From Candidatus Saccharimonadota bacterium (lineage in GTDB: Bacteria > Patescibacteriota > Saccharimonadia > Saccharimonadales > Saccharimonadaceae), in the NCBI GenBank assembly GCA_017511205.1, contig JAFWLE010000002.1:62001-126000 (forward strand): a DNA stretch of 64,000 bases, given 5' to 3'. Both the position numbers and the translations under genes were made by a program. This document shows, one piece after another, positions 18,096 through 32,461 of the stretch. The notes under the pieces were generated by a model, which was given only the letters and a program-made list of their open reading frames with translations, ran no database searches and had not been told where the DNA came from. The number at the start of each line of letters is the position of its first letter. Within the stretch, counting starts at the first letter, position 1.

Positions 18096-18141
18096 ACTCT
18101 TCCTCCTAAGGTTCTTTGTTTATGCAACAACTAATACCTTA

Positions 18142-18170: not shown

Positions 18171-18195
18171 GCTTAAAACCATAAAATCGATTCAT

Positions 18196-18222
18196 GAAAA
18201 AGCCCCCAGTTCTCTGGAGGCT
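18196..18222 (-). terminator. Terminator of lipoprotein gene 1
   Basis: Minus strand GCCTCCAG-AGAA-CTGGGGGC followed by TTTTT. A second hairpin (TCTAGAATG/CATTCTAGA) overlaps the stop codon. Confidence 0.85.
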
Positions 18223-18234
18223 ATCTAGAATGAT

Positions 18235-18903: not shown

Positions 18904-19035
18904 TCCCCCCTCCTTTCTAAAATACCTTGGGAAAACCAACTAAAGAGGCATTATACTCCATAATTCCCTATTAATCAAGGGTAGATTGTGAAAAAAAATG
19001 AAAATCAGCCTGTGGAAAACTTTCTCTAAAAAAGC

Positions 19036-19063
19036 TTGACATAGAAAAGAAAGATGCTAAAAT
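19036..19063 (+). promoter_or_regulatory. Promoter of the repeat adhesin gene
   Basis: TTGACA (19036-19041), 16-bp spacer, TAAAAT (19058-19063). Confidence 0.65.
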
Positions 19064-19109
19064 GATAAGCATAATAGGTTATACAAAAATAAACAAGGAA
19101 AACAAACAA

Positions 19110-21347
19110 ATGAGAAAACAATATCACAAGCTACTATATGCGCTAGTCCCGCTACTATCCATATGTGCTATTGCTATGGGTAATATTTTTGCCGCAAGCG
19201 AGCCATATAACATTGCCTACAGTGGCGGGAGCGAACTAAAAAATGTTGTAATTGAAAACGAAAGTTTAATCAATTCTTTTACTCCATTGGTAGCAAGGAG
19301 CGAAGGGGTTACTATAACGCCAACTGGTAACAAATGGATTGGAACTTCAAGTAGTAATAAGAGGTGGAAAAAACCTAACAGTACTGTTGGATGCGAATCT
19401 ACCTATGCCCTAGAGTTTAGTTATAATGATATAACTAATGTAATTAATCAAGGGTATAAAGTATCAGGTACTTATTACGATATGTATGTAACGTTTAAAG
19501 ACGTTAAGTTCAGTGGTTTTAGTAGTGCCGCCGACAAGAGCAAAAATTTTACAATTACTATTGTGCCTGGCAGTGCCACTCTTGGTGTAGGGTACCAATT
19601 ATATAACGATGCAGCATGTACTAATAAAGTAGGTGATTATACTCATCTAGACACTGAAGACACCTATAAGATATTTATTGAAACAGAGATTGTACTTAAA
19701 AAACGTAATCAAGCTACTAATTTTAGTGCAGAAGGAATCTACTTTAGGCTTTCGGATATAGATGCCGCACAATCTTACAAGATATTAAACTCCGGTAATG
19801 AATTAACCGCAAAAGATGGTAGTGGCAACGGTAAAATGTACGCAAAAAGTCTTTCAGCACTAAGCCCGAGCAGTGGCAGCCTAAAAAATATGTTTAACGA
19901 TGGGTATGTCTATTCTCAGTATAGCGGTGCAAATTACGTGAATTGCCAAGCAGATGAAACGAACGGGTGTACAGATGCTAATATCTATGTCCCTCTCACT
20001 ACTACTACTCAATCTAATGGCCTACAATTTGTCTTTGGTTTTGCTAACGCAGCTGGTAGCGGTATCGAATTTTTCGCCAAACAATTGAAGGTGAATTATG
20101 CCTCTGATACTAATGGCAGAATTACCGGTATAGTTTCAGAAGATGTTATTTCTGGTAGTCATCCAACTGGCTCCACCCAAGAACCAAGCACTGGCTACGA
20201 GTTTAAATGCTGGACTGCAGATGTTGACGTCACTTTGTCTAGTAATAACGCAGTGATTCCAAGTGGAAATTGTATGACTGATGCACAAGTAGAAGATGTA
20301 AAGATTTTGGAAGATACCACATTTACCGCCATACATCAAGCTATTCCAGCTCCAACTCAATTGACTGTAAATTATGCTTCAGATGGATATGGTAGGATTA
20401 CCGGTAAAACCACTGAAAGTGTTCAAGAAAATGGCAATCCAACTGGCTCCACTCAGGAACCAAATGACGGCTACAGATTTACCTGTTGGAAAGCTAACGT
20501 CGCTGTGACTTTAACAAGCGGTGAAAGCAAAGCTGCCAATACTTGCCTTACTGATGCAGAAGTGAAGAAGGTCATCGTTACTCAGGCTATTACCTTCACT
20601 GCATATCACGAGGCTATTCCAGTTCCAACTCAATTGACTGTAAATTATGCTTCAGATGGATATGGTAGGATTACCGGTAAAACCACTGAAAGTGTTCAAG
20701 AAAATGGTCAACCAACTGGTTCCACTCAGACTCCAAACGACGGCTACAGATTTACCTGTTGGAAAGCTAACGTCGCTGTGACTTTAACAAGCGGTGAAAG
20801 CAAAGCTGCCAATACTTGCCTTACTGATGCAGAAGTGAAGAAGGTCATCGTTACTCAGGCTATCACCTTCACTGCGTATCACGAAGCTATCCCAACCCCT
20901 ACTCCAACTCAATATAATGTAACCTATATATCTGATGAAAATGGCGAAATTACCGGTATTAATTCAGAAACTGTGGAAGAAAACAACAATCCATCTGGTT
21001 CTACTCAAAAACCAAATGATGGCTACGAATTTGTCTGTTGGGTAGCAAACGTTGCAGTTACTTTAACTGATGGCGAAACGAAAAAGGTTGATGATTGTCT
21101 TACCGATGCAGAAGTGAAGAAGGTTGTAGTAACCCAAGATATCGAGTTTACCGCACTTCACTTGGCTATTCCAGCTGATGAAGAGCCAGAAGAAGAGTCT
21201 TATCCTATGGCTACACCAGAAACTGGTGCTAGCACCGGAGAAATCAACGCCGTAGTTCTGCCTGTTTCTGTCCTTAGTATTATAAGCGTAGTCATCATCT
21301 CAATTTTGCCACGCTTATTCCATAAAAAAGTAAGCTTCAAAAAATAG
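19110..21347 (+). CDS. Repeat-containing surface protein with sorting-like C-terminus
   Basis: A 745-residue predicted adhesin. The start at 19110 (MRKQYHKLLYALVPLLSICAIAMGNIFAAS) gives a clean signal peptide, and the longer frame runs into the promoter. The N-terminal ~300 residues are unrecognised. Four tandem repeats of about 93 residues follow (from 20092, 20353, 20632 and 20917 on the DNA), each reading like VNYASDGYGRITG ... GSTQEPNDGYRFTCWKANVAVTL ... CLTDAEVKKVIVTQAITFTA. Each has a conserved Cys pair. The C-terminus has TPETGA, a 20-residue membrane segment and KKVSFKK, the layout of an LPxTG-like sorting signal. No sortase is in the window. It is flanked by two paralogous lipoproteins on the other strand. 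Confidence 0.75.
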   Translation: MRKQYHKLLYALVPLLSICAIAMGNIFAASEPYNIAYSGGSELKNVVIENESLINSFTPLVARSEGVTITPTGNKWIGTSSSNKRWKKPNSTVGCESTYALEFSYNDITNVINQGYKVSGTYYDMYVTFKDVKFSGFSSAADKSKNFTITIVPGSATLGVGYQLYNDAACTNKVGDYTHLDTEDTYKIFIETEIVLKKRNQATNFSAEGIYFRLSDIDAAQSYKILNSGNELTAKDGSGNGKMYAKSLSALSPSSGSLKNMFNDGYVYSQYSGANYVNCQADETNGCTDANIYVPLTTTTQSNGLQFVFGFANAAGSGIEFFAKQLKVNYASDTNGRITGIVSEDVISGSHPTGSTQEPSTGYEFKCWTADVDVTLSSNNAVIPSGNCMTDAQVEDVKILEDTTFTAIHQAIPAPTQLTVNYASDGYGRITGKTTESVQENGNPTGSTQEPNDGYRFTCWKANVAVTLTSGESKAANTCLTDAEVKKVIVTQAITFTAYHEAIPVPTQLTVNYASDGYGRITGKTTESVQENGQPTGSTQTPNDGYRFTCWKANVAVTLTSGESKAANTCLTDAEVKKVIVTQAITFTAYHEAIPTPTPTQYNVTYISDENGEITGINSETVEENNNPSGSTQKPNDGYEFVCWVANVAVTLTDGETKKVDDCLTDAEVKKVVVTQDIEFTALHLAIPADEEPEEESYPMATPETGASTGEINAVVLPVSVLSIISVVIISILPRLFHKKVSFKK
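20344..20901 (+). repeat. Two near-identical 279-bp tandem repeats within the adhesin gene
   Basis: Units 20344-20622 and 20623-20901 differ at only a few bases; the outer two repeat units of the gene are more diverged. Such identity implies recent duplication or gene conversion, so copy number may vary between strains. Confidence 0.8.
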
Positions 21348-21363
21348 CCCGGTATAACCCAAA

Positions 21364-21397
21364 ATGAACTGGTCGAAAACACCAGTTCATTTTTTTC
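21364..21397 (+). terminator. Terminator of the adhesin gene
   Basis: ATGAACTGGT / ACCAGTTCAT stem followed by TTTTTTT. Confidence 0.92.
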
Positions 21398-21400
21398 TCA

Positions 21401-21432
21401 AATAAAAAGCTCCCGACTGATTGTCGGGAGCT
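21401..21432 (-). terminator. Terminator of lipoprotein gene 2
   Basis: AGCTCCCGAC / GTCGGGAGCT stem, with TTTTT on the minus strand. Confidence 0.9.
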
Positions 21433-21452
21433 GACAAAGGTTATAATTTATC

Positions 21453-22136
21453 TTAGCCCTCTTCGAGAGCCAATTCGGCTAGCTTGCTAAAGGTCAAATC
21501 CTCCTCTATTTCAACAAGCTTTGTTCTCCGTATTTCTATTTGATCAATACCGAGTGGGTTACCTTTCTCGTCCTTCATCCCAATGGCTGGGCCTTCAGCG
21601 AAAAAGATTTTACCCTCAGTGACATAATCCCACTGGCCATCACCAGAGAGATCGCAAACGCTGAAAATCCTCCTTTCCCTGTCTACGATATTTTGCCACT
21701 TTATTATTACTCCGGTAACCTCTAAAGATTTACCGTTTTTATGGGCTTCAACTACGGGCTTTGAGGATGCCAACACTAAAATAGCGTCCCCTGAAATCAT
21801 TTTACGCCATACATCATTGATGTAAAAAAGCTCGTTACCATAGGAGTCCTCCAAGAGAATTGTTTCCCCATTAGGGGTTTCCAATCTAAAACCTATGCTG
21901 AAAGGTGTTCGCCTTTCTAGGGTTTTTTCTATCAGGATCCTAGCGGTATCCGTAGAGTTCCAGAAGAGTTCATCCGAGCTTTCTGCTCTAATCTCCTCCA
22001 GTTCACTCTCGACCTCATATGCGGTGTCGGAAAGGTCATTAGTGACCCTTGACTCCGTTGTTCCGTTGTTACATCCAGTAAGAATAACCATTACGGCTAA
22101 CATAGTGATAACTAAAAAAACCATTCCTTTTCTCAT
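21453..22136 (-). CDS. Predicted lipoprotein, paralogue 2
   Basis: A 227-residue predicted lipoprotein: MRKGMVFLVITMLAVMVILTGC is a signal sequence with lipobox LTGC (Cys22). The mature part aligns along its length with the protein at 18235-18903, including the GDGQWDYVTEGKIFF block. It is transcribed alone from TTTACT-17-TATAAT (about 22277-22305) with a long leader of about 135 nt. The two paralogues bracket the adhesin gene, which suggests that the three act together at the surface, although the lipoproteins are transcribed on the opposite strand. Confidence 0.75.
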   Translation of the reverse strand: MRKGMVFLVITMLAVMVILTGCNNGTTESRVTNDLSDTAYEVESELEEIRAESSDELFWNSTDTARILIEKTLERRTPFSIGFRLETPNGETILLEDSYGNELFYINDVWRKMISGDAILVLASSKPVVEAHKNGKSLEVTGVIIKWQNIVDRERRIFSVCDLSGDGQWDYVTEGKIFFAEGPAIGMKDEKGNPLGIDQIEIRRTKLVEIEEDLTFSKLAELALEEG

Positions 22137-22350
22137 TTTCCTTCTCCTTTGATTCCTCTACATTTTTACGTTCATTTATCTACAATCCTGCCATGTTAGG
22201 ATAAAAGTGAATTCAGGGCATATTACAGCCAGCCAGTTTTAACCTTCGATCTATGTAAAACACAGATATACTCTATATTATAGCATACTTTTGACAAAAA
22301 GTAAAGTATAAGCCTTAAATCTTTAAGTTTCATAAATAATTAGAAATAAA

Positions 22351-22371
22351 AAACCCGCTTATAGCGGGTTT
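22351..22371 (-). terminator. Terminator of the 120-residue orphan gene
   Basis: Minus strand AACCCGC-TATAA-GCGGGTT followed by TTTTT. Confidence 0.88.
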
Positions 22372-22385
22372 ATACATAGCGCTGA

Positions 22386-22748
22386 TTAATATTCACATGG
22401 AGGAATGACCTCGATTCGAGCTGATTTCATATATCCGAATTCTCCGTCATCCATCCTTACTCCGTAGTAATGATCGATATCTCGCCGAATTTCGACGATT
22501 TCTCCCCTGCCAGGGCTTACTACTCCAGGGCAAATATAACCGATGATGTCTCCCTTGACCTCTACTCTATCTCCAAGGAGATAATATTTATTCACGCCAA
22601 GAGGACCTTCCTCAATCACGCCGACCGGAGTGGCTTTATCGTCATTAGTAACGATCAGCTTGTGATTTGATATCTTGCAAGGCTCAATCTTGAAGCCAGC
22701 TTCTCTTAAATCACCTTTTTCAATTAAAGTACGACTTAATTCTTTCAT
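22386..22748 (-). CDS. Orphan protein, 120 residues, beta-rich
   Basis: I do not recognise this protein. The C-terminal two thirds look like one or two small beta-barrels (KYYLLGDRVEVKGDIIGYICPGVVSPGRGEIVEIRRDIDHYYGVRMDDGEFGYMKSARIEVI), similar in texture to SH3 or KOW-like modules, which is inference only. It is monocistronic from a near-perfect promoter, TTGACA-17-TATAAT (22819-22847), with its own terminator. Confidence 0.7.
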   Translation of the reverse strand: MKELSRTLIEKGDLREAGFKIEPCKISNHKLIVTNDDKATPVGVIEEGPLGVNKYYLLGDRVEVKGDIIGYICPGVVSPGRGEIVEIRRDIDHYYGVRMDDGEFGYMKSARIEVIPPCEY

Positions 22749-22818
22749 TGCAACTCCTTTCCCTCCATAGAGCCAACACCTATAAAATGTTCCTATTGAA
22801 CAAATTAAGTATACCTAT

Positions 22819-22847
22819 ATTATACACCAAAACTTGCAAAATGTCAA
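22819..22847 (-). promoter_or_regulatory. Promoter of the 120-residue orphan gene
   Basis: Minus strand TTGACA (22842-22847), 17-bp spacer, TATAAT (22819-22824). Confidence 0.75.
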
Positions 22848-22865
22848 GTTGGAGGAGCCATTTTT

Positions 22866-22895
22866 ATAAAAAAAGCCCTGAATAAAATTCAGGGG
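22866..22895 (-). terminator. Terminator of the csx3-like transcript
   Basis: Minus strand CCCTGAAT-TTT-ATTCAGGG followed by CTTTTTTT. Confidence 0.92.
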
Positions 22896-23050
22896 GTTAT
22901 TGGTTACCGTCCCTTATGGTTTTAATGCCCGTAAGTACATTACTTCGGCCGAGGCCGAAGGGTTATAGGTCACCGCCCCCTGCAAAATGCAGGCGATCCT
23001 CAATGGAGGCTGTATTCAATTGTTATGGCCGAGGGCCGGCGGCTACAGGA
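22896..23050 (-). other. Structured 3' region of the csx3-like transcript
   Basis: About 150 nt between the stop codon and the terminator fold into several hairpins, including CTTCGGCC/GGCCGAAG and CCTGCA/TGCAGG. A hairpin (CTACAGGA / TCCTGTAG) contains the last codons and the TAG stop itself. Two similar stretches, GCGGTGACCTATAACCC and ACGGTAACCAATAACCC, occur in the same orientation. It may be a stabilising 3' end or a processed small RNA. Confidence 0.5.
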
Positions 23051-23351
23051 GGTCTCCCGTCCTGTAGTCGGCACTGTGTGACACCGCGACTACATAGTGT
23101 CCGAGCTTAGGGTCAAAGACCGCTACAGCTGGGCATATATGCAGCAACGCATGTGCCAGAACAAATGCCACCGGCAGGGAGGCCGGTCCGTTGAGCAGGC
23201 AGGTTTTACCCATTACCTGCTGCGAGACAGCTTCGATCGCCTTCTCGGCGTCTTTGACTATCTCGTCGTTTCCTGCAGGCTCGCCAAAGCCTATCTTGAG
23301 AGTTACAGTTGATTCTGTGGTTTCTGCTACGCTGACATTGTACTTTGCCAT
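23043..23351 (-). CDS. csx3-like: Csx3-like protein (CRISPR ring-nuclease family) without a CRISPR locus
   Basis: A 102-residue protein whose C-terminal half matches the Csx3 pattern: a GPASLPVAFVLAHALLH helix, then the strand and turn VAVFDPKLGHYVVAVSHSADYRTGDLL. In Csx3, known as a cyclic tetra-adenylate (cA4) ring nuclease (Crn3), conserved His, Asp, Arg/Lys and His residues serve catalysis or binding. Counterparts here are His71, Asp80, Lys82 and His92, and the His-to-Asp spacing of nine agrees with what I recall of the family. The N-terminal ~40 residues are less typical. Base composition is visibly more GC-rich than the neighbours, suggesting transfer. No cas gene or array is in the window. 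It shares its promoter module and operator with the giant RNA at 30106-31151. Confidence 0.68.
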   Translation of the reverse strand: MAKYNVSVAETTESTVTLKIGFGEPAGNDEIVKDAEKAIEAVSQQVMGKTCLLNGPASLPVAFVLAHALLHICPAVAVFDPKLGHYVVAVSHSADYRTGDLL

Positions 23352-23408
23352 ATCTCTTCCTCCTCCTCTTGATTCTTCTGCTAAGGTTCATTATTTCTAA
23401 CTGTCCTA

Positions 23409-23437
23409 AGTATACAATATTCTTGACAAAAAGTAAA
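23409..23437 (-). promoter_or_regulatory. Promoter of the csx3-like gene (shared module, copy 1)
   Basis: Minus strand TTTACT (23432-23437), 17-bp spacer, TATACT (23409-23414). The stretch from 23401 to about 23440 is nearly identical to the promoter of the giant RNA. Confidence 0.8.
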
Positions 23438-23486
23438 TATAATATCAACACTATATATAATAACAGGGGTAAAAACACTAAATAAA

Positions 23487-23505
23487 TGTAAATACTGCTT
23501 TTACA
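23487..23505. promoter_or_regulatory. Operator TGTAAA-N7-TTTACA, copy 1
   Basis: A perfect 6-bp inverted repeat with a 7-bp spacer, about 85 bp upstream of the predicted transcription start of the csx3-like gene; the same spacing is found at two other loci. Confidence 0.75.
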
Positions 23506-23522
23506 AAACGCCTCGGGAGCTA

Positions 23523-23552
23523 AAAAAACGCCCCAGCAGGCTGCTGAGGCAT
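23523..23552 (-). terminator. Terminator of the two-gene orphan operon
   Basis: Minus strand GCCTCAGCAG-CC-TGCTGGGGC followed by GTTTTTTT. Confidence 0.88.
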
Positions 23553-23592
23553 TCGTTTCCTTAAAAACACTCATTAGTGCCTCCTTATATCC

Positions 23593-24018
23593 TTATATTC
23601 CATTACATTCCCAAAACGCATCTATTGATCCGTATTCGTCGCAACATTCCTCTATCATCATATTGGTAAGTTCTATATCGCTAAACTCATATTCCCCTTC
23701 TTCTCCTATCTCTTCATACCAATCCTCTGGCCAAAACCAAGGATGTCCATATATCTCTCTAGCAACTCTCTTTCTTCTTAAATACTCGCGGCATCCATCT
23801 GGTGAAATATGTGTCAATTTGCGCTTCGGCTCAACTACAAATTTCCTCTCTAATTCCGCTTCGAGCGCATTTTCTATATCCTTTATATCATCCTCCGTTA
23901 GATCCTGCGGCTTAAAACAACGAAATCTAGTGTAAAGCCTCTGTCTCATATGTCCGATAATATACTTATGAAATAACTTCTCTGTTTTCTGATTCTTAAA
24001 ACTATACTCTTTGTTCAC
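23593..24018 (-). CDS. Orphan protein, 141 residues
   Basis: I do not recognise this protein. It is charged and probably cytoplasmic. The middle has EDDIKDIENALEAELERKFVVEPKRKLTHISPDGCREYLRRKRVAREIYGHPWFWPEDWYEEIGEEGEYEF, a helical basic region followed by an aromatic acidic segment. It is probably the second gene of an operon with 24176-24538, since no strong promoter separates them; a lone TATAAT near 24042 could be internal. The SD AGGAGGTGA precedes the GTG/ATG region at the start. Confidence 0.65.
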   Translation of the reverse strand: MNKEYSFKNQKTEKLFHKYIIGHMRQRLYTRFRCFKPQDLTEDDIKDIENALEAELERKFVVEPKRKLTHISPDGCREYLRRKRVAREIYGHPWFWPEDWYEEIGEEGEYEFSDIELTNMMIEECCDEYGSIDAFWECNGI

Positions 24019-24175
24019 TACACATCACCTCCTGAGTGTTTCAAATTATAAATGTACTTTCTGCACTTTGCCTTTTTAGGTCGGCAAATCAGCTTAGCAG
24101 TAGCTCCTATAGTCTTAATGTCTATAGGTACATTCTCTCCGAGAAGGGGGTAATTACCCAGTATTCAATTGTGAT

Positions 24176-24538
24176 CTAGTAATCGCAAAGATGAGCCTTA
24201 GACCATCTCCCGCTGTACTCCAAATGATATTCAGAGTCAAGTGGGGTAATCGTGTCCTTGAAATTGTTAGGACGGATAGATCCCATGCCGTCGGCTTCAT
24301 ATATTGCTACTTCTGTAGTTTCGCCTCGAATCAATTCCCGATCTTTCTCAAGATCATAGAAGTATTCATCATCTTGATGTCTCAGGAATCTTCTCCTAGA
24401 CTCGAATTCGACAAATCCACAAGTCTTTGTCAAATAATCAGCAAAAGCATCGATATCCCGATCGGATATCGTCCCTACAAAACTAGTGTAAGGAAATTCG
24501 CCATCAGTATATGCTCCTATACGTACTTCGTAAATCAA
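24176..24538 (-). CDS. Orphan protein, 120 residues
   Basis: I do not recognise this protein. It begins MIYEVRIGAYTDGEFPYTSFVGTISDRDIDAFADYLTKTCGFVEFESRRRF, an alternating strand-helix pattern of a small alpha/beta domain, and ends with LDSEYHLEYSGRWSKAHLCDY. The start codon is TTG, supported by the SD AAAGGAGG ten bases upstream and by homology-free but stop-limited upstream sequence. The promoter lies 150 bp upstream (24685-24713), leaving a long leader. Confidence 0.62.
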   Translation of the reverse strand: MIYEVRIGAYTDGEFPYTSFVGTISDRDIDAFADYLTKTCGFVEFESRRRFLRHQDDEYFYDLEKDRELIRGETTEVAIYEADGMGSIRPNNFKDTITPLDSEYHLEYSGRWSKAHLCDY

Positions 24539-24684
24539 AAAGTTAATACCTCCTTTAAAAACCTCTCAAAACAAACAAAATATAATATATAATAAACACC
24601 AGATAAATCTGATGGGGACTAGAATTAAGGCTTCCTCCTTTCGGATTATTAATCTGCATGAGCATTCTGTATGCAAACTTATGT

Positions 24685-24713
24685 ATTATATCATATTACG
24701 ATAAATAAGTCAA
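24685..24713 (-). promoter_or_regulatory. Promoter of the two-gene orphan operon
   Basis: Minus strand TTGACT (24708-24713), 17-bp spacer, TATAAT (24685-24690), giving a leader of about 140 nt with a second SD-like AAAGGAGG and no clear upstream ORF. Confidence 0.7.
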
Positions 24714-24765
24714 TAATAATAACATGAAAAGATATATTATTAAAAATCTTTCAGAATAAAAAAGA

Positions 24766-24794
24766 TTGACAGGTACGAAAAAATAATATAATAT
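24766..24794 (+). promoter_or_regulatory. Promoter of the acidic 537-residue protein gene
   Basis: TTGACA (24766-24771) with TAATAT at a 17-bp spacing (24789-24794), or TATAAT at 15 bp (24787-24792). Confidence 0.5.
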
Positions 24795-24837
24795 AAAGAT
24801 AAGCGTGATATTATTTTTACAAGAAAGGTAAAATCAA

Positions 24838-26451
24838 ATGAAAGAAGGCAACAATAACTGGGGATATACCATCGACGAAGATGATCCAATCAATGGAGCA
24901 GTCGATCCAGATCGAGGGAAAGGTGGCGACAATAATCCCGGGTTTTCTATTGATGAAGATGATCCAATTAACGGAACGGTCGAAGATCCAGAAGAAAGAA
25001 AAGAAGCTATAGACCAATTGTTTGAAGTATATGCTGGCGAAAATGCTAAAAAGAAACATTTAGCAGAAACGGCTCTAAAATCAAATCAAGACGAAGCCAC
25101 GCCTATAGTATACAGGGATGTAGAAGATCCAGATTATAGCCCAGAAGCCAAACAAGCTGCTGCCGATAAACCGGATATATCCAACCCCAAAGTGGAAAAA
25201 GCAGAAAACCCAGTTAATAGAGATTTCCGAGAAAAAGCGGAAAGATTGAGGTCACGCCCAAATTATGATTTGACTGACAAAGGTAAAAGAGCAAAAGAAA
25301 CGTTCTTGGAGGCCTTAGAAGATCGCGAAGAAGCTAAACACCCAACTGATAAACCAAGCTATCGGCTGCTCAGTGTAGCAGCAGTGGAGCTAGAGCGTAT
25401 TGAACAACCTGACAATCCAGAAGAGAGGGTCAAAAAGAACAACGCAGAAATTGAAAAAGCAGTCAAAGAAGCTTATGGTGATGACAAATTAGATGATTAC
25501 GCCAATACGACCATGGCCGCCGCTCAACTATACATCTCAGAAGGTTTAATTGGGAAAGATGCCAAATCGGTCTCGATTGGCACTGCTGAACCAATTGTTA
25601 ACGCAGAGGGACAAGTAGGTGAAGATCCAGAAACCTATAATCATATGGTCGTCATAAGATGGACTAAAGATGATATGAATCACGTCGTGGCCTTCTCACC
25701 TCGAGAAAATTCCAGGATTTATTCCCTAGTAGACGATAGTATGGGTGATTCATGGCGAGAAACCTTCCGCAAAGCCGGTGCGGTAGGTGGAAAAGATAGA
25801 GAAAAAATCATCGTTACCGGACACGAACATAAAGCTCATAAAGACAACAGAGAAAACTTTTATTACCAAGAGAAAACTTTTGAAACCCTTGCATATAGGA
25901 TTCTAGAGGAAGAATCGACGGCAGTCATTAAATCAGCCAATCTTTCACCGAAAGAAAAAACTAATCTCATGAGCAAGATAGTGCAAGAACAAAAAGCTAT
26001 TGAAGATGCGCATTCTTATGAGCGTGATCAAGACAAAAAACCAAGTCAAACAAAAGAATCTTCCGTAGAAAGTGACACTATGAAGTTAAGCGATGTTGCT
26101 AAAGAGAACGTCGCTAACCGCCAGATGCACCAAAGTGATTTTTCGGATGAAGACAGTAGCGTTGGCAAAGAAGTCGGTAATAAAACTGTTGGCCAAACGG
26201 CTGATTACGAAGGATATGGCTCCAATCCAGATGATGAAGGCAATGACTTAGACGAAGATGATTTAAACTCAAACGAATTATATGACGAGGGCGAAGATAA
26301 ATACTATGATCGAAATGGCGCATTGTCAGGCAGAAGGAGACCTAACGAATATGAACAGCCAAGACCGGGTGCCAATGTTGATGCAGCAATTGATGACATT
26401 GAAGAAGAAGAAAGACTAAAACAGTTGTACGAGAAAAGTCATAAAGCCTAG
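24838..26451 (+). CDS. Large acidic orphan protein, 537 residues
   Basis: I do not recognise this protein. No signal peptide or membrane segment is visible. The N-terminus holds a duplicated motif (GYTIDEDDPINGAV at about residue 9 and GFSIDEDDPINGTV at about 38). Residues about 95-190 are Lys/Glu/Pro-rich and likely flexible. A compact domain appears at about 200-390 (TMAAAQLYISEGLIGKDAKSVSIGTAEP ... YNHMVVIRWTKDDMNHVVAFSPRENSRIYSLVDD ... HEHKAHKD). The C-terminal 130 residues are again acidic and disordered-looking. It is the only plus-strand orphan in this region and is closed by a bidirectional terminator. It could be a regulator or an effector; nothing decides it. Confidence 0.7.
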   Translation: MKEGNNNWGYTIDEDDPINGAVDPDRGKGGDNNPGFSIDEDDPINGTVEDPEERKEAIDQLFEVYAGENAKKKHLAETALKSNQDEATPIVYRDVEDPDYSPEAKQAAADKPDISNPKVEKAENPVNRDFREKAERLRSRPNYDLTDKGKRAKETFLEALEDREEAKHPTDKPSYRLLSVAAVELERIEQPDNPEERVKKNNAEIEKAVKEAYGDDKLDDYANTTMAAAQLYISEGLIGKDAKSVSIGTAEPIVNAEGQVGEDPETYNHMVVIRWTKDDMNHVVAFSPRENSRIYSLVDDSMGDSWRETFRKAGAVGGKDREKIIVTGHEHKAHKDNRENFYYQEKTFETLAYRILEEESTAVIKSANLSPKEKTNLMSKIVQEQKAIEDAHSYERDQDKKPSQTKESSVESDTMKLSDVAKENVANRQMHQSDFSDEDSSVGKEVGNKTVGQTADYEGYGSNPDDEGNDLDEDDLNSNELYDEGEDKYYDRNGALSGRRRPNEYEQPRPGANVDAAIDDIEEEERLKQLYEKSHKA

Positions 26452-26455
26452 TTAA

Positions 26456-26488
26456 AAAAGTGCCCTCAAACACGAGGGCACACCTTTT
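26456..26488. terminator. Bidirectional terminator between convergent genes
   Basis: GTGCCCTC / GAGGGCAC stem with A/T tracts on both sides. Confidence 0.9.
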
Positions 26489-26828
26489 AATTATAGTAAC
26501 TTAAACGTTCCTGAAGCCGTAATCCAGCGTCGAGCATTTCGTTGATAGCATTCGGCGCAGTTTTCTTCACCTCATCGAAATTTGTGATGAGATTATACTG
26601 CATTAGAGGCTTCTTCAGCCAGTCTCTTCTCATCAAGGCGTCGCCAGATTCTGGGTCATAAAAGATTGTAGCTAATACCCTTTTTCTGTCATAGTCCTCT
26701 CCTTCATCCCAGCATAAAGTCACTGGAGAAGGGATGATACCCCTATTCTTGCTATCGGAGAGTGCCCAATCGTAGGCCTCCTTATAACGCTTATTCATTA
26801 CATCTTCTAAATAAATTACCTTTGCCAT
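26487..26828 (-). CDS. Orphan protein, 113 residues
   Basis: I do not recognise this protein. It begins MAKVIYLEDVMNKRYKEAYDWALSDSKNRG and has a conserved-looking core (VTLCWDEGEDYDRKRVLATIFYDPESGDALMRRDWLKKPLMQYNLITNF). The start at 26828 follows an SD (GGAGGGGAGGAA); the longer frame would enter the promoter (TTGACT-17-TATAAT, 26868-26896). It is monocistronic, with no membrane segment. Confidence 0.68.
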   Translation of the reverse strand: MAKVIYLEDVMNKRYKEAYDWALSDSKNRGIIPSPVTLCWDEGEDYDRKRVLATIFYDPESGDALMRRDWLKKPLMQYNLITNFDEVKKTAPNAINEMLDAGLRLQERLSYYN

Positions 26829-26867
26829 ATTCCTCCCCTCCTCTCTAGGCTGGCAAACTATACTGTA

Positions 26868-26896
26868 ATTATAGCACAAATAAGCATAAAAGTCAA
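26868..26896 (-). promoter_or_regulatory. Promoter of the 113-residue orphan gene
   Basis: Minus strand TTGACT (26891-26896), 17-bp spacer ending TGTGC, TATAAT (26868-26873). Confidence 0.72.
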
Positions 26897-26930
26897 GGTA
26901 AACACTTAACTTAAGTCTCTAGAAATGGCA

Positions 26931-27890
26931 TTAACGCTGCGCGTTATCTTCGGCGATTCGTCCTATCTTGATTTCGTTTCGCCATTCTTTAGTGGTCCCC
27001 ATGATGTTTTCGTATACGGCATCATATTGTTTCATTTCAGCTATTTTTTCTTGATATTTTTTAAATAAAGCATTTTGGCGTTCTGTACTGTCTGGGTATT
27101 CCTTAGCATTAAAACTTAGTACGCGTCTTATGCCCATATTAACTGCTGGAATCAGGCGTTTCAACTTCTCGACTCTTTTAAGCGAGTTTTCTCCTTTCTT
27201 ACCCTCCAACATGTCCAGGCACATAAAGATTTCTTCATGGATTTCAGATAAGATTATAAAATCAGCATCGAAATCCTCTTCGCGTCCTATGAGCTGATCA
27301 TTATTTATTAAAATATGGCCAAAAGCGTTATTTTCACTAGCTGGCGACATCCCTAGAACGAAGTGAGGAGCTTGTCGATCGCGCCACCGTCTATCATCGT
27401 GCAAACAATACTTAATATAAGAAGTTCCGTCGTGCCAAGAAAAACTATTATCAAACTTTTTCGAGATGTTATCAATGTCTGTCCCAGTTGCTGCGTCTGC
27501 GCCAAACGTTACAAAAAAATCCTTCTTACTGTCCTGGACCCCAAATACGACATCTGTTCCGTTCAATTTATCGTCGTATACACTTGCCAAAAAAGAGAAA
27601 CTGTCTCTAGTCGGCAATAATCTCTCGTCGTTTAAAATATAAGTAAGAAGCGGTTCCATATTTTTGGCGAACTCATCATTCGACTTCGCATTTCCTTTCT
27701 CTCTATCTTCGGCAAGTCTCTTTTTAAGTCTCTCTTTGTCATCTTTCAACATCCCATCTGGGAAACCCCGATAACCGTAAAAGTCATCAAAATCAGGCCG
27801 AGCACTAAGCATCGCTCGACGTAATACCCCTTTCTTTTCCTCTAAAAGCACCTCGTTACCACCGTTAACTTCAGAATTAGGATCTTTCAT
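26931..27890 (-). CDS. Orphan protein, 319 residues
   Basis: I do not recognise this protein. It is soluble, acidic and helical at both ends. The centre (FLASVYDDKLNGTDVVFGVQDSKKDFFVTFGADAATGTDIDNISKKFDNSFSWHDGTSYIKYCLHDDRRW ... HFVLGMSPASENNAFGHILINNDQLIGREEDFDADFIILSEIHEEIFMCLDMLEG) looks like an alpha/beta domain with several Asp/His residues, but no known catalytic signature is certain. It is monocistronic; the -10 is TATAAT with extended TGA, about 35 bp upstream of the ATG. Confidence 0.68.
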   Translation of the reverse strand: MKDPNSEVNGGNEVLLEEKKGVLRRAMLSARPDFDDFYGYRGFPDGMLKDDKERLKKRLAEDREKGNAKSNDEFAKNMEPLLTYILNDERLLPTRDSFSFLASVYDDKLNGTDVVFGVQDSKKDFFVTFGADAATGTDIDNISKKFDNSFSWHDGTSYIKYCLHDDRRWRDRQAPHFVLGMSPASENNAFGHILINNDQLIGREEDFDADFIILSEIHEEIFMCLDMLEGKKGENSLKRVEKLKRLIPAVNMGIRRVLSFNAKEYPDSTERQNALFKKYQEKIAEMKQYDAVYENIMGTTKEWRNEIKIGRIAEDNAQR

Positions 27891-27944
27891 TTTTACCTCT
27901 CTTAGTGTTATTCCAACGATTACAATTATATCACATTGGGCATG

Positions 27945-27972
27945 AAAAAAGGCCTCAAATCAAGAGGCCTAC
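27945..27972 (-). terminator. Terminator of the 113-residue (27988) orphan gene
   Basis: Minus strand AGGCCTC-TTGATTT-GAGGCCT followed by TTTTTT; the promoter of the next gene begins inside it. Confidence 0.88.
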
Positions 27973-27987
27973 CAAAATAATTTGCAG

Positions 27988-28329
27988 TTATTCTTCTTCT
28001 TTTAATGAAAGTCTAAAAGAGCGAAGTACCTTTATCAATTTGCTCACATCTCGTCGTGCGTCAGCTACATTATGATAAGTTGGATTCAGATAAACCCGGA
28101 TTTCACCGTTGACCAACCTGTCAACATTGTAGCCAGTGCAATTGCCGTTAAAAACTAGCCCATTCAAACAAGTCTTAATTACTGATTCGCTTGGATGGTA
28201 CTTTTTTGGCCAAAAATAAACTTGAATTTCGTTTAAGTTTTTTTCGGCAAAAACTTTTATATCGGTGCCGTCTAGCATCAAACCAGGTGGTGCTTTCTCT
28301 TGCATCTCATTATTCATTTTCATATTCAT
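27988..28329 (-). CDS. Orphan protein, 113 residues
   Basis: I do not recognise this protein. The start is at 28329 (MNMKMNNEMQEK), chosen because GGAGGGGAAA lies directly upstream; the longest frame would begin in the leader. The body is an alpha/beta domain (DIKVFAEKNLNEIQVYFWPKKYHPSESVIKTCLNGLVFNGNCTGYNVDRLVNGEIRVYLNPTYHNVADARRDVSKLIKVLRSF). The promoter is TTGACT-17-TATAAT (28422-28450), and the 5' leader has a GTTTACCC/GGGTAAAC hairpin (about 28389-28409). Confidence 0.66.
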   Translation of the reverse strand: MNMKMNNEMQEKAPPGLMLDGTDIKVFAEKNLNEIQVYFWPKKYHPSESVIKTCLNGLVFNGNCTGYNVDRLVNGEIRVYLNPTYHNVADARRDVSKLIKVLRSFRLSLKEEE

Positions 28330-28421
28330 TTTCCCCTCCATGATATGATCAACTCCTAGCCGCAAAATATTATTATAAAAGTTCAAGTTTACCCCCCATA
28401 TGGGTAAACAATATAACTTAC

Positions 28422-28450
28422 ATTATAGCATAAACTTCATAAAAAGTCAA
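28422..28450 (-). promoter_or_regulatory. Promoter of the 27988-28329 gene
   Basis: Minus strand TTGACT (28445-28450), 17-bp spacer ending ATGC, TATAAT (28422-28427). Confidence 0.75.
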
Positions 28451-28460
28451 TCGTTAAAAA

Positions 28461-28486
28461 ATACCCCCAACAAATGTTGAGGGTAT
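28461..28486 (-). terminator. Terminator of the 28637-28951 transcript
   Basis: Minus strand ATACCCTCAAC / GTTGGGGGTAT followed by TTTTTT. Confidence 0.88.
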
Positions 28487-28488
28487 GG

Positions 28489-28620
28489 GGTAGGCACCGT
28501 CAGAGACGGACTAGCTTCCGCTAGTAATGCCTACCTATATTTAGCAGGGGGATACAGTCCTACTTTTTTAATGTGCAGTAGTTTTTCCCAATTGAGGCTG
28601 GGAAAAAACTATAAAATCCA
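28489..28620 (-). ncRNA. Structured 3' region with a three-way junction
   Basis: On the minus strand an 8-bp closing stem (28489-28496 with 28528-28535) holds two perfect hairpins, CCGTC/GACGG (28497-28509) and CTAGC/GCTAG (28511-28524). Upstream is a hairpin AGTTTTT..CCCA / TTGGG..AAAACT (about 28575-28612). It sits between the stop of the 28637 gene and its terminator. It may be a stabilising 3' UTR or a small RNA. It explains the gap of about 300 bases between the flanking genes together with the promoter at 28422-28450. Confidence 0.45.
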
Positions 28621-28636
28621 CCCTTCCTTGACAGCT

Positions 28637-28951
28637 TTACGCCATAAAGTATTCATCACAAGAACAGACAACGTCATGTTCTGTGAGCCAGCCTTTTTCA
28701 AGACTATCATACAATAGGCTAAAGACGTTAATGTCAAGGCTGTAGTTTCCATCTATGAAGGGGGTAATCTCCCATAGATCATCTTCCCAACCTTTGGTGG
28801 AAAGACTCTTGTCTATGTAGATCACCACTCCATTTGGATAGAAAACTGCATAATGGAACCCAACATCACTGGAGTGCCTCTCTTCCCAAGAAACAGCTGC
28901 ACGAGTGATATGAGCCCAAGCTTTTTCTGATAGTGGAGAAAAGTTCATCAT
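28637..28951 (-). CDS. Orphan protein, about 104 residues, under the shared operator
   Basis: I do not recognise this protein. The sequence MMNFSPLSEKAWAHITRAAVSWEERHSSDVGFHYAVFYPNGVVIYIDKSLSTKGWEDDLWEITPFIDGNYSLDINVFSLLYDSLEKGWLTEHDVVCSCDEYFMA looks like a small alpha/beta cytosolic protein. The ATG at 28951 has an SD-like AGAAGGG eight bases upstream; a GTG at 28981 is an in-frame alternative adding ten basic residues. The promoter (29116-29144) is copy 2 of the module shared with the csx3-like gene and the giant RNA, so it is probably in the same regulon. The leader is about 160 nt. Confidence 0.6.
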   Translation of the reverse strand: MMNFSPLSEKAWAHITRAAVSWEERHSSDVGFHYAVFYPNGVVIYIDKSLSTKGWEDDLWEITPFIDGNYSLDINVFSLLYDSLEKGWLTEHDVVCSCDEYFMA

Positions 28952-29115
28952 ATTGATGACCCTTCTAACCGTGGCCTTCACGCTTAAGCGTTTATAACCA
29001 TGAAAGCGGCACCCAGCTTCGTTTGGAAGTGGGCGGAACCTCGCGGGCCCTTCTCATCTCTATTCATCCTCCATTTCTTAAATAACTAGTTTGCGTCCCC
29101 CGCAAACTTGATACA

Positions 29116-29144
29116 ATTATATAATAATATTGACAAAAAGTAAA
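29116..29144 (-). promoter_or_regulatory. Promoter of the 28637 gene (shared module, copy 2)
   Basis: Minus strand TTTACT (29139-29144), 17-bp spacer, TATAAT (29116-29121). It aligns without gaps with the modules at 23401 and 31150 up to the operator. The surrounding intergenic stretch (28952-29306) holds only this module, the leader and the trmB promoter. Confidence 0.78.
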
Positions 29145-29194
29145 TATAATATCAATAACCCAAAAAAATAACAGGGACAAAAACAAAATAAAAA

Positions 29195-29213
29195 TGTAAA
29201 ATTCATCTTTACA
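29195..29213. promoter_or_regulatory. Operator TGTAAA-N7-TTTACA, copy 2
   Basis: A perfect inverted repeat at the same distance from the promoter as in copies 1 and 3, and about 95 bp upstream of the trmB-like start, so it could control both directions. Confidence 0.75.
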
Positions 29214-29289
29214 TTTATGCCATTGTCCCAAATCCTCCTGACTATCTGACACTTTCTCTATCCTTTTTTATTACTCCACTCAACGTCTT

Positions 29290-29295
29290 TATGAT
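29290..29295 (+). promoter_or_regulatory. Probable -10 of the TrmB-like gene
   Basis: TATGAT, followed 12 bases later by the ATG, giving a leader of only about 5 nt. Confidence 0.4.
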
Positions 29296-29306
29296 AAAAT
29301 TAAAAC

Positions 29307-30098
29307 ATGGAAGAAACGGATATTCTTAAAAAAGCAGGGCTAAACGAAGCTCAAGCGGCTATTTATTACAGTTTGCTCAAAAATGGTGCCATGTCGCCAG
29401 CGGAGCTAGCAACCGAAACTGGCCAGTCAAGAGAAAATTGTTACGCCGTGGCCAAAAAACTAGTAGAGCTAGGTTTAATCGAACAAACAGATAGCAAAAA
29501 AGCTAGATACCGAGTTTTGAATCCTAGTAGCCTAGAGGTTTTAGCCGAAAAACGCCGTAAAGTCATGGCCAAAAATGAAAAACTCGTCAAAGATAATATT
29601 TCGGCGCTTCTTGATATTTTTTATGCTAATAACGAGATGCCCGGAGCTAGAACTCTGGAAGGTATAGAGGGTCTAGAAGAAGTTTATAAAGACATGTTGA
29701 GAGTCAAAAAAGATGTTTATTATTTGCGTACTGATGCAGACGAAGGCTTTTGGCATGATACTGAAGAACACTATGATTTTTTGGAGAAATATCGTGAACA
29801 AAGGTCTATTCTTGGCATACGCACTTATGCTTTGACGCCAGCTACAAAGAGAGCGGTAAAACATGCTCGTGCAGGTAGCGATAACGCCTGGAATTTTGAT
29901 CGAACTTGGATGCCGGTCGGAGATTACACCGCTCCAGCAGAAATGTGGGCTTACGGTGACAAAGCTGCCTTTTGCACTTACGGTGAAACTCAAATTTCTA
30001 CTCTCATTACTAGCCCCGCCATCGCCGAGGCCATTCGCCAAGTCATAAAACTTCTAAAGAACTTTTATCAGAAGAATTTCCCCCAGGAACAGAAATAA
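29307..30098 (+). CDS. TrmB-family transcriptional regulator
   Basis: A 263-residue regulator. Residues 1-70 form a winged helix-turn-helix (LKKAGLNEAQAAIYYSLLKNGAMSPAELATETGQSRENCYAVAKKLVELGLIEQTDSKKARYRVLNPSSL), the family hallmark, followed by a coiled-coil (AEKRRKVMAKNEKLVKDNISALLDI) and a ligand/regulatory domain starting ARTLEGIEGLEEVYKDML. TrmB proteins of archaea and some bacteria sense sugars or other small molecules. It lies directly between two of the three TGTAAA-N7-TTTACA operators, so it is the best candidate for the factor that binds them, including its own upstream region. This link is inference. Confidence 0.85.
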   Translation: MEETDILKKAGLNEAQAAIYYSLLKNGAMSPAELATETGQSRENCYAVAKKLVELGLIEQTDSKKARYRVLNPSSLEVLAEKRRKVMAKNEKLVKDNISALLDIFYANNEMPGARTLEGIEGLEEVYKDMLRVKKDVYYLRTDADEGFWHDTEEHYDFLEKYREQRSILGIRTYALTPATKRAVKHARAGSDNAWNFDRTWMPVGDYTAPAEMWAYGDKAAFCTYGETQISTLITSPAIAEAIRQVIKLLKNFYQKNFPQEQK

Positions 30099-30105
30099 TC
30101 ATACG

Positions 30106-31151
30106 AAAAAGACGGACTGATCTGTCCGCCTTTCAAGATTAAACGTGCTAGGAAGATTTTGGCTTGGGGCCATACTTCCAATGCTCTTCGTCCGTTCCTT
30201 ATCGTATCCCTACGGTTTGGCAACGGAGACGTTTTGTTGCTGTTGAGCCATGAGCACTCTAAGCTAAGTCTCGCATTTTCAAACGGCTGGCCGGCCGCCC
30301 TACTCATACTCCTTCAACCAGAGTTTTGCTACGCCCACGCGTACTTTTGTGGAAACCCCTAAGGGTGCCGTACGCGAACCGAGTTAAATATGACCAGCGG
30401 AAGCTCCGCCGACTGACCCGAAGGCCAGAGATAGAAATCTTTCGATAACTATTACTCCATATTTATCAAACGAGGTTTCCTCGTCGCCACCCGGTACCAC
30501 TCACCTCTTGCCCATTGGCAAGCCTCTGAGGCACCTTTTATCACTTCAGTGATAAAAGCCAGAGTCAAACTTTGAGAAGCTTCTCTTTACCTTTGGAGCA
30601 AAGAGAGCGCGACGCCATGCAACAGTGTTGAGGTGGATTGCGGTCCAGCTCAGCTTATTACCTTATCTCCTTCTATAAAACGCCAAAGGCGTCACCCACT
30701 TGGGTGTAGAAAGCCGTCACCGTGTCTCGTTCTTAGATTTGTGTGCTGTACAACATAAACGATCCTTTTTCTGAATCGTTACAAAACGTTCATACTACGC
30801 AGATCTTACGATTCCCTTTCGGGATTCGCATGAATAGCTATTACTAGCCATTCTCAATACTTACTATCTTACACGGAGGCAATTCTGCTCTTGATAGCTT
30901 TCTTGTTTCTAGTTGCATTTGCAACCATCTGCGCATCCAGCCAAGGCGAGGGTCATATCTCACCTTTACAACTGGTTTAGCATGTTCAAAATCGCCACCA
31001 AAAGCAAGCTTAAGGCGGCGCATCAACGAAATACTGCTTCATAATTTCGTTGATATGCCGTCTCAAACTCCTGCCCGCAGATAATTAATTAATTCTGCGA
31101 AGTGTTTTAGATTTTTTAATTTACCGTTGCTCGGTCTCAACTTTCGCAACT
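30106..31151 (-). ncRNA. Giant structured non-coding RNA, about 1,046 nt
   Basis: A stretch with no credible gene, having its own promoter (31158-31186) and a Rho-independent terminator (GGCGGAC / GTCCGTC then TTTTT, 30106-30130). It folds into many local helices: an 11-bp hairpin (31022-31054), CGCAGA/TCTGCG (31076-31099), a 10-bp hairpin (30535-30558), a three-way junction (30669-30713), a 7-bp CGCGTAC/GTACGCG stem (30338-30376), and stems capped by GAAA (30813-30824) and UUCG (30413-30428) tetraloops. The size and ornateness resemble large bacterial RNAs such as GOLLD, ROOL or OLE. I recognise no RNase P, tmRNA, rRNA or intron signature and cannot assign a family. Confidence 0.82.
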
Positions 31152-31157
31152 GTCCTA

Positions 31158-31186
31158 AGTATATAATATTCTTGACAAAAAGTAAA
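31158..31186 (-). promoter_or_regulatory. Promoter of the giant RNA (shared module, copy 3)
   Basis: Minus strand TTTACT (31181-31186), 17-bp spacer, TATACT (31158-31163). The bases around the start (CTGTCCTAAGTATA on the plus strand) are the same as in the csx3-like promoter. Confidence 0.82.
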
Positions 31187-31236
31187 TATAACATTACCGA
31201 TTATACATATTAACAGAGGTAAATTTTGAATAAAAA

Positions 31237-31255
31237 TGTAAAAACACATTTTACA
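31237..31255. promoter_or_regulatory. Operator TGTAAA-N7-TTTACA, copy 3
   Basis: A perfect inverted repeat at the conserved position upstream of the giant-RNA promoter. It also lies just upstream of, or overlapping the -35 region of, the GNAT gene promoter. Confidence 0.75.
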
Positions 31256-31279
31256 ATTCACTAGATAATGGTGTTATGC

Positions 31280-31285
31280 TATACT
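31280..31285 (+). promoter_or_regulatory. -10 of the GNAT gene
   Basis: TATACT with TTCACT 17 bp upstream (31257-31262); the predicted start falls on the ATG at 31292 (leaderless). Confidence 0.55.
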
Positions 31286-31291
31286 TATGCC

Positions 31292-31762
31292 ATGGGTATT
31301 ACGATTCGTATTGCCACTATGGCAGATTTAAAAACTATACAAAAACTTGGCTTTGATTTGCTAGACTATGAACGCCAGAATTGGGATCCCACTCTTGACG
31401 TTGACTGGCCGTTTAGTGAAGAAGGCAAAGCTGGTTACGAAAAGGCCATTAAGGAAAAATACACCATTATTGCCGAAGAAGAAGGCGAACCAGTTGGCTA
31501 TCTAATTGGCTCTGTTAAAAAACCAATCAAAGGCGCAGCTCGCCAGATTACTACCGCTCAGTTGGAAAATATTTTTGTACTTCGAGACTACCGCAGAAAA
31601 AACATCGGTAAAAAGCTGTTCGATAAGTTTTTGGATTATTGCGAGCAGAATCATGTGGATGCTCTAAATGTTACGGTTAATGCCAAGAATAAAACCGCCA
31701 TTTCCTTTTACGAAAAACTTGGTTTCTCCTCTTCTCGCTTGTTCTTATCGAAAGAACTTTGA
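31292..31762 (+). CDS. GNAT-family N-acetyltransferase
   Basis: A 156-residue acetyltransferase of the GNAT fold. It begins MGITIRIATMADLKTIQKLGFDLLDYE; the acetyl-CoA motif A is LENIFVLRDYRRKNIGKKLFDKFLDYCEQN (Arg-Arg-Lys-x-Ile-Gly-Lys), followed by the ALNVTVNAKNKTAISFYEKLGF motif B typical of RimI-like enzymes. The substrate is unknown. The start at 31292 was chosen over the upstream frame because family homology and the predicted transcription start coincide there. It diverges from the giant-RNA promoter. Confidence 0.85.
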   Translation: MGITIRIATMADLKTIQKLGFDLLDYERQNWDPTLDVDWPFSEEGKAGYEKAIKEKYTIIAEEEGEPVGYLIGSVKKPIKGAARQITTAQLENIFVLRDYRRKNIGKKLFDKFLDYCEQNHVDALNVTVNAKNKTAISFYEKLGFSSSRLFLSKEL

Positions 31763-31784
31763 GCTCTAGTTTTCTTAATGAAAA

Positions 31785-31806
31785 AGCCCCAGTCTTAACT
31801 GGGGTT
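31785..31806 (-). terminator. Terminator of the small membrane-protein gene
   Basis: Minus strand CCCCAG-TTAAGA-CTGGGG followed by CTTTTT. A second hairpin (TTTGTGC / GCACAAA) lies at about 31815-31847. It may also serve the convergent GNAT gene. Confidence 0.8.
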
Positions 31807-31896
31807 AAATCTCATTTGTGCTCCACCAGGGGGAGTGTTGGCACAAATCAGCTTAAAATATTAGTGTATCTTGTAATCAGTATATATAAATTAGGT

Positions 31897-32286
31897 TTAA
31901 TCGTATTCAATGGGGATCATTAGCCCCACTTTTTCTAGCTTCCTTTTCCAAATATACTTTGCAAGTACTAGTATTGCAGTTAATATGATTCCGATTGTCA
32001 TCATTACGCCTGCAACTTCCGAAATTAGCATACAGACAGTCTCATGCTCTCTCGTCATTGTATACACCACTATTGGTAGTATTGTAATGACAGACAAGAA
32101 GAGTGTGACAAGAAACGCTATATTTATCGCTAAGCGATATAATTTAGCCTTAGGGATTACCGTTGGTTCTAGCCTATCATGCTCGGTTATCCATCTATCT
32201 ATTTCCCACATCAAAGGTGAATTGCAATTTTTTGCATCCGAAACTTCAACCTTTTCTCCTGTTACCATGTTAACTAATTTTACCAT
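31897..32286 (-). CDS. Two-helix membrane protein, 129 residues
   Basis: I do not recognise this protein. The start at 32286 (MVKLVNMVTGEKVEVSDAKNCNSPLMWEIDRW) is chosen because GGAGGTG lies immediately upstream. Two membrane segments are clear: LAINIAFLVTLFLSVITILPIVVYTM and ISEVAGVMMTIGIILTAILVLAKYI. The short N-terminal cytosolic domain precedes a basic helix. The promoter is TTGACA-17-TATCAT (32384-32412), with a leader of about 90 nt. Confidence 0.66.
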   Translation of the reverse strand: MVKLVNMVTGEKVEVSDAKNCNSPLMWEIDRWITEHDRLEPTVIPKAKLYRLAINIAFLVTLFLSVITILPIVVYTMTREHETVCMLISEVAGVMMTIGIILTAILVLAKYIWKRKLEKVGLMIPIEYD

Positions 32287-32383
32287 TTCCACCTCCATAA
32301 TAACTCTAAATTCTGTTATAACCCAACTAAAGACCCTAGAACTGATTAGTACCCGAGATTCTAAAGGACTCCCCCCAGCGTTT

Positions 32384-32412
32384 ATGATACCATATTCAGA
32401 ATGAATTGTCAA
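32384..32412 (-). promoter_or_regulatory. Promoter of the two-helix membrane protein gene
   Basis: Minus strand TTGACA (32407-32412), 17-bp spacer, TATCAT (32384-32389). Confidence 0.65.
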
Positions 32413-32424
32413 TTTAAATCAAAA

Positions 32425-32450
32425 ACCGCCCCTATGGAGAGCGGTTTTGT
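32425..32450 (-). terminator. fusA terminator
   Basis: Minus strand ACCGCTC / GGGGCGGT stem followed by TTTTT. Confidence 0.85.
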
Positions 32451-32461
32451 TTTAGAAGAAT

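Follow-up and report, generated by a model that had tools for sequence, protein, structure and literature searches.

Apart from rRNA and introns, very few bacterial RNAs longer than 600 nt are known, and all three of the ornate classes with solved structures proved to be RNA multimers of poorly understood purpose. ROOL, GOLLD, and OLE form RNA-only multimers through kissing loops and A-minor contacts (PMC12286853). ROOL is non-essential and in L. salivarius adjoins a gene encoding an HTH regulator (PMC5643018), GOLLD is a phage or prophage RNA located near tRNAs (PMC12286853), and OLE is found mainly in extremophiles and anaerobes of the Bacillota (PMC12054373). Here we analyzed a 64,000-nt stretch of a Candidatus Saccharimonadota contig, denoted the window, and found a locus that very likely encodes a previously undescribed class of structured trans-acting RNA, about 1.05 kb long, in gut-type Saccharibacteria. 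No transcript data were available for this RNA.

The locus, of ~1,048 nt, is located on the minus strand at 30106-31153 and was delimited as a giant structured non-coding RNA based on its relatives, covariation, closed frames, and lack of an Rfam match. It is preceded by the promoter TTTACT-17 nt-TATACT (31158-31186, minus strand) and ends in an intrinsic terminator (30106-30130, minus strand) composed of the hairpin GGCGGAC/GTCCGTC and a U tract (TTTTT); the terminator stem (helix 44) covaries. Both the 17-nt spacing between the -35 and -10 elements and the terminator were found in all seven full-length copies, the window copy among them. The probable transcript start is near 31151-31153, and the sequence ACAGTTGYG is at or near the start in nearly all copies. 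The minimum free energy (MFE) of the window copy is -373 kcal/mol, compared with -305 ± 9 for 60 dinucleotide shuffles (z = -7.4), and that of the antisense strand is -318. The GC content of the locus is 46% versus 41% for the window. Each frame of the window copy contains 18-21 stops, and no long frame is common to the seven full-length sequences, in which all frames are closed. The sequences thus show a single long non-coding unit with its own promoter and intrinsic terminator, in the absence of transcript data.

The copies from the window, G401, and G483 were scanned permissively against all 4,227 families of Rfam 15, with no meaningful result. In a positive control, the permissive mode detected the ROOL of L. 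salivarius pMP118 at 130 bits (L156, 3264-3806, minus strand), which the default (gathering) mode missed, so only the permissive scans were counted. At the gathering threshold, Rfam identified only a tRNA-Leu in the window; default-mode negatives are unsafe for long RNAs. The GOLLD and OLE negatives have no positive control for those models, whose presence in Rfam we take from PMC12286853. The literature searched, with incomplete coverage, contained no paper describing this RNA. We also considered whether it could be a large catalytic RNA or a self-splicing element without its exons, since it resembles large ribozymes in size, in its junctions and GNRA loops, and in having conserved purine-rich stretches that are unpaired. 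We regard this as very unlikely: the RNA has its own promoter and terminator, no flanking exons, and no ORF, and the permissive scans, which included the group I and group II intron models, were empty.

Seven relatives of the new RNA were identified: two belong to the genus of the window genome, and the other five to a second genus of that family. The same-genus relatives, G081 (75% identity, full length) and G172 (74% identity), were recovered in a wider genus search, in which weak BLAST matches at E about 0.01-1 were judged to be chance. A covariance model built on the 3′ domain (R1) detected the second-genus copies (G401, G307, G426, G438, and G483), all of which were also matched by an independent 5′-domain model (R2), with the exception of G426. 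This copy retains only the last ~250 nt of the RNA, adjoining gyrA, and is a remnant. A rebuilt model (R3) detected the RNA in 8 out of 394 genomes and 2 out of 61 genera of the family, with no copy outside those genera among 313 genera sampled across the phylum. We then scanned 84,980 species/genomes for an exact motif, the 3′ CGUA-GGGA-UACG hairpin with its GNRA tetraloop, and found only the known seven loci beyond the window genome, all of them in Saccharibacteria. Because the model and motif searches rely on fast first filters, distant copies may have been missed. BLASTN in 60 relatives found the window copy only, as the RNA-bearing genomes were not in that sample. No match was found by phage and plasmid BLAST or by four IMG/VR motif scans, and no hidden copy was found near the TrmB genes of other genomes (L039-L046). 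A GC-rich block in L041 was rejected as a copy, as it reads as a protein gene on the opposite strand, and the idea that this protein is an AcrIII-1-like ring nuclease was dropped without Pfam support. Most species of both genera lack the RNA, and G426 keeps no more than a 3′ fragment of it, so it is dispensable. The copies with a source in the record title come from cattle or sheep gut, or from rumen metagenome-assembled genomes (rumen being read from the isolate names RUI/RUG), and gut rather than oral metatranscriptomes are therefore the place to seek the transcript.

To assess conservation of the fold, we aligned the seven full-length copies (1,169 columns, 62-98% identity), without the G426 fragment. 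The RNAalifold consensus contained 278 pairs, 110 of which had double changes, while ribosum scoring gave about 316 pairs in 44 helices. The consensus energy was -514, compared with -267 ± 7 for shuffled alignments. With the structure fixed, 126 out of 316 pairs changed on both sides and 93% of cells were paired. Shuffled alignments had 69 ± 5 double-changed pairs, and none out of 500 reached 126. Slid alignments, which retain sequence relatedness, had 21-32 double-changed pairs, so the observed covariation is about fourfold above them. Two pairs of sequences are close (91% and 98%), leaving about five independent lineages, and the independent changes are therefore fewer than the cell counts suggest. 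The covariation support for a shared multi-domain fold is overwhelming.

Nearly all conserved bases of the RNA sit in helices or junctions, and its least conserved part is a single-stranded A-rich segment at about columns 45-100 of the alignment, close to the 5′ end. This bears on the possibility of a trans-acting regulatory RNA that pairs with mRNAs or titrates a regulator as a sponge. The regulated-looking promoter and the poorly conserved, single-stranded 5′ stretch could fit such a role. However, the exposed stretch is the part that is least conserved, the conserved bases are nearly all structural, and 44 helices are not needed for target pairing, making a sponge or antisense RNA unlikely.

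These results allowed us to evaluate a preliminary description of the locus, made from sequence alone, which had proposed a giant structured non-coding RNA that was either a divergent member of a class such as ROOL, GOLLD, or OLE or a new class. The structured RNA is supported by homologs, covariation, and the conserved promoter and terminator. The new-class alternative also held, as none of the sequence or structure models tried matched ROOL, GOLLD, or OLE, and the Rfam match that would have ended the claim of novelty did not appear in the permissive search. The proposed boundaries, TTTACT-17-TATACT and a Rho-independent terminator, were confirmed and are conserved across the full-length copies. 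The absence of a credible protein held as well, with stops in every frame, and a conserved translated frame, which would have refuted the claim, was not found across the seven sequences. Of the follow-up analyses it suggested, collecting homologs from Saccharibacteria yielded the seven relatives, the covariation test was strongly positive against both shuffled and slid controls, and the proposed search of oral metatranscriptomes was adjusted to gut.

The consensus fold includes several distinct elements, all on the minus strand. The long 5′ hairpin (helix 2, 31009-31067) has 13 out of 30 pairs changed on both sides. Helices 6/7 (30937-30975) present the apical loop UAUGA (30957-30953), which forms a pseudoknot with UCAUA (30389-30393). 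This pairing lies outside the nested fold, is replaced elsewhere by UACAA/UUGUA, and covaries in 3 out of 5 pairs. The core is closed by two long-range helices: helix 14, which joins 30782-30790 to 30228-30236 (6 out of 9 pairs covary), and helix 16, which joins 30745-30755 to 30238-30248 (100% of cells paired). The hairpin of helices 26/27 (30524-30564) has 9 out of 16 covarying pairs. The most conserved 3′ domain contains the CGUA-GGGA-UACG hairpin with its invariant GNRA tetraloop (30203-30214), and a second conserved GNRA tetraloop, GUAA or GCAA, caps helix 12 (30841-30844). Helix 39 (30281-30300), whose stem covaries, carries the apical loop CGGCCA or UGGCCG (30293-30288), in which the palindromic GGCC is invariant. 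This loop could be a symmetric kissing loop, although the palindrome is only four bases long and oligomerization is inferred. The invariant apical loop AUUGCC (30878-30883) is complementary to an invariant GCAA at 30641-30638 and may make a kissing contact with it; as neither loop varies, this contact remains a candidate only.

The genomic neighborhood of the RNA differed between the two genera. In the window and in G081, the RNA cluster is located between tuf and fusA. The tuf-fusA interval (window 17402-32461) is a variable island of mostly unrecognized genes, partly common to G081. A gene encoding a TrmB-family HTH regulator (29307-30098, plus strand; PF01978, E 4.8e-13), a candidate regulator of the RNA, was found near all three same-genus copies and only there. 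Its orientation changes, being convergent with the RNA in the window, and directly downstream on the same strand in G081. Near the G172 copy, a TrmB-family gene is divergent from a gene for a Csx3-AAA type protein (L038, 3517-4827). In the second genus, the RNA is flanked by gyrA and by a gene that we call DUF212/PAP2-like on the basis of its sequence rather than of a family search, and no TrmB, GNAT, or csx3 gene was found at the locus. The neighbors therefore do not define the function of the RNA. Since the surroundings differ between genera while the promoter, RNA, and terminator stay together, the RNA should act in trans. It is all but excluded that the RNA is instead a decayed coding region or a cis-acting element of the TrmB or GNAT gene, whether a leader or at the 3′ end. 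The same-strand TrmB gene directly downstream in G081 would fit a cis element, but TrmB is convergent in the window, neither gene accompanies the second-genus copies, the terminator closes the RNA, and the frames are full of stops.

The gyrA-DUF212 interval is only 84-255 nt long in 14 other second-genus genomes, and the RNA is thus a self-standing unit that has been gained or lost. Three further genomes (G303, G456, and G309; L147, L149, and L150) have gaps of 1.15 kb in this interval. These were rejected as carriers of the RNA, as they hold an unrelated protein gene of ~180-200 aa on the opposite strand. The interval is thus a cargo spot. This raises the alternative that the RNA gene is selfish or mobile and is carried at variable places in the chromosome, for which the patchy presence (8 out of 394 family genomes), the two different sites, the short gaps, and the other cargo could be cited. 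We consider it unlikely, as no integrase, repeats, or second copy was seen, the surroundings are largely constant within each genus, and no phage, plasmid, or IMG/VR match was found.

We next analyzed the region upstream of the trans-acting RNA. About 50 nt upstream of the -35 element is a palindromic putative operator, TTGTAAAA-N5-TTTTACA (31237-31256, minus strand), with equivalents before all seven full-length copies. Six copies have this sequence or close variants, and G172 has the differing palindrome TTTGTCGA-N6-TTCGACAAA. The palindrome is followed by TTTACCYCTGTT-like bases, and upstream comparison identified the conserved word TTTACCTCTGTT between palindrome and promoter (31212-31223, minus strand), which is also common ahead of other promoters in these genomes. 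The word TACCYCTGTT alone was rejected as a specific signal, being common before other promoters, including that of dnaK. The palindrome is possibly an operator, perhaps for a TrmB-like protein; this is inferred.

In all of the 796-kb window genome, TTTACTTTTTGTCAA is found at exactly four places, always on the minus strand and within window positions 22291-31186: before the RNA, before a Csx3-like gene, before a gene encoding a 114-aa protein, and at 22305-22291, where there is no palindrome. The Csx3-like gene (23043-23351, minus strand) is located 7.8 kb from the RNA and was identified by PF09620 (E 1.7e-6) and PADLOC (Csx3, 8e-17). Its module consists of a palindrome with one mismatch (23506-23487), the word (23474-23462), and the promoter with the first transcribed bases (23437-23399), and the leader start GGACAGTT is common to the gene and the RNA. 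The 114-aa protein gene (28637-28981, minus strand) has the same promoter box (29144-29130) and a palindrome, and the protein has a 105-aa counterpart in G081. The preliminary description had placed the RNA in a regulatory context of flanking TrmB and GNAT genes and a promoter shared with a csx3-like gene. The csx3-like gene is real; the shared promoter held in part, being a near-identical duplicated module rather than one promoter. The TrmB/GNAT context failed as a conserved feature, being absent from the second genus. The RNA is linked to TrmB and Csx3 by the similarity of promoters and by proximity in one genus.

Additional observations were made around these modules. The two genomes share an almost identical, hairpin-rich stretch of ~95 nt that lies immediately before the 114-aa/105-aa gene and extends into its start (window 28960-29112, minus strand; L033 9945-10100, minus strand). 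It has no Rfam match and could represent another structured RNA driven by this promoter. On the 3′ side of the Csx3-like gene, the segment at window 22850-23046 (minus strand) is hairpin-rich (MFE -60.6 in 196 nt), ends in a strong terminator, and may also be structured. TGTCGA-N-TCGACA palindromes in the layout of the RNA operator were found before a Csx3-like gene in G438 (L088, 1767-2060) and before a nucleoside deoxyribosyltransferase-like gene in G426 (L078, 1652-2161), possibly hinting at a wider regulon. Csx3-like genes preceded by the palindrome/promoter element were found in two genomes only.

The promoter module common to the RNA, the Csx3-like gene, and the 114-aa gene could also indicate a large ribonucleoprotein or defense RNA, which would bind the Csx3-like or small co-regulated protein and act as sensor or target in a phage or nucleic-acid response. 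The similar palindromes in G438 and G426 and the role of Csx3 as a cyclic oligoadenylate ring nuclease in type III CRISPR (PMC7371418) are in line with this. However, Csx3 was not seen next to the RNA in either G081 or the second genus, the scan of the cluster proteins identified no further CRISPR or defense genes, and Csx3-like proteins may have non-CRISPR roles. We therefore consider a defense RNA unlikely.

The explanation that we prefer combines the new RNA class with a proposed mechanism, and as a whole we hold it to be slightly more likely than not. A regulator, possibly a TrmB-like protein, would bind the palindrome and switch on the RNA together with the Csx3-like protein and the small protein under a particular condition, which may be stress or a nucleic-acid or phage challenge. 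Long-range stems and conserved loops would fold the RNA into a compact particle that probably self-associates and serves as a scaffold or a sequestering body, instead of acting as an antisense RNA. Such an architectural role is inferred by analogy with ROOL, GOLLD, and OLE, as is oligomerization, and we hold it to be plausible without being the probable outcome. A bolder reading, that kissing loops drive self-assembly into an RNA-only particle and that a dedicated repressor or activator governs its deployment alongside a Csx3-like cyclic-nucleotide protein, is doubtful; if true, it would mean an RNA-based response system in the near-minimal genome of an epibiont. A kilobase of non-coding RNA is costly to a streamlined genome, and its retention in some gut species thus argues for a real function there. 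An unrelated class of ~1,050 nt in the ultra-small, epibiotic Saccharibacteria offers a fresh, testable case with a defined promoter, an operator-like site, and putatively co-regulated proteins.

The new RNA can be compared with known systems in several respects. Csx3/Crn3 ring-nuclease loci resemble it through the Csx3-like gene carrying the RNA's promoter module, but these proteins are type III CRISPR accessories, and no giant non-coding RNA was described in such loci in the abstracts found. OLE is likewise a large, conserved, chromosomal, trans-acting RNA, and its dimer has a symmetric 4-nt kissing loop comparable with the GGCC loop found here; in contrast, OLE is about 600 nt long and its model does not match. 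GOLLD is similarly giant (over 800 nt), with a conserved 3′ domain and a more variable 5′ part, but gave no Rfam match at E up to 5. ROOL (RF03087) is also a large ornate non-coding RNA of gut and rumen bacteria with its own transcription unit. However, it measures about 550-660 nt rather than 1,050 and has no model or BLAST similarity to the RNA. ROOL is typical of phages and prophages near tRNA islands, whereas the RNA is chromosomal without a phage context: the closest tRNA gene of the window lies at a distance of 30 kb, and phage, plasmid, and IMG/VR searches gave no match. The RNA fulfills two criteria of a large ornate bacterial non-coding RNA, namely extensive covarying structure and the lack of a conserved ORF; further ones would be an abundant stable transcript and homo-oligomeric assembly, the latter merely suggested by the palindromic GGCC loop. 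Its likeness to ROOL, GOLLD, and OLE is one of kind, not of homology, and, matching no described class, it would be a new entry on the short list of giant bacterial RNAs with unknown jobs.
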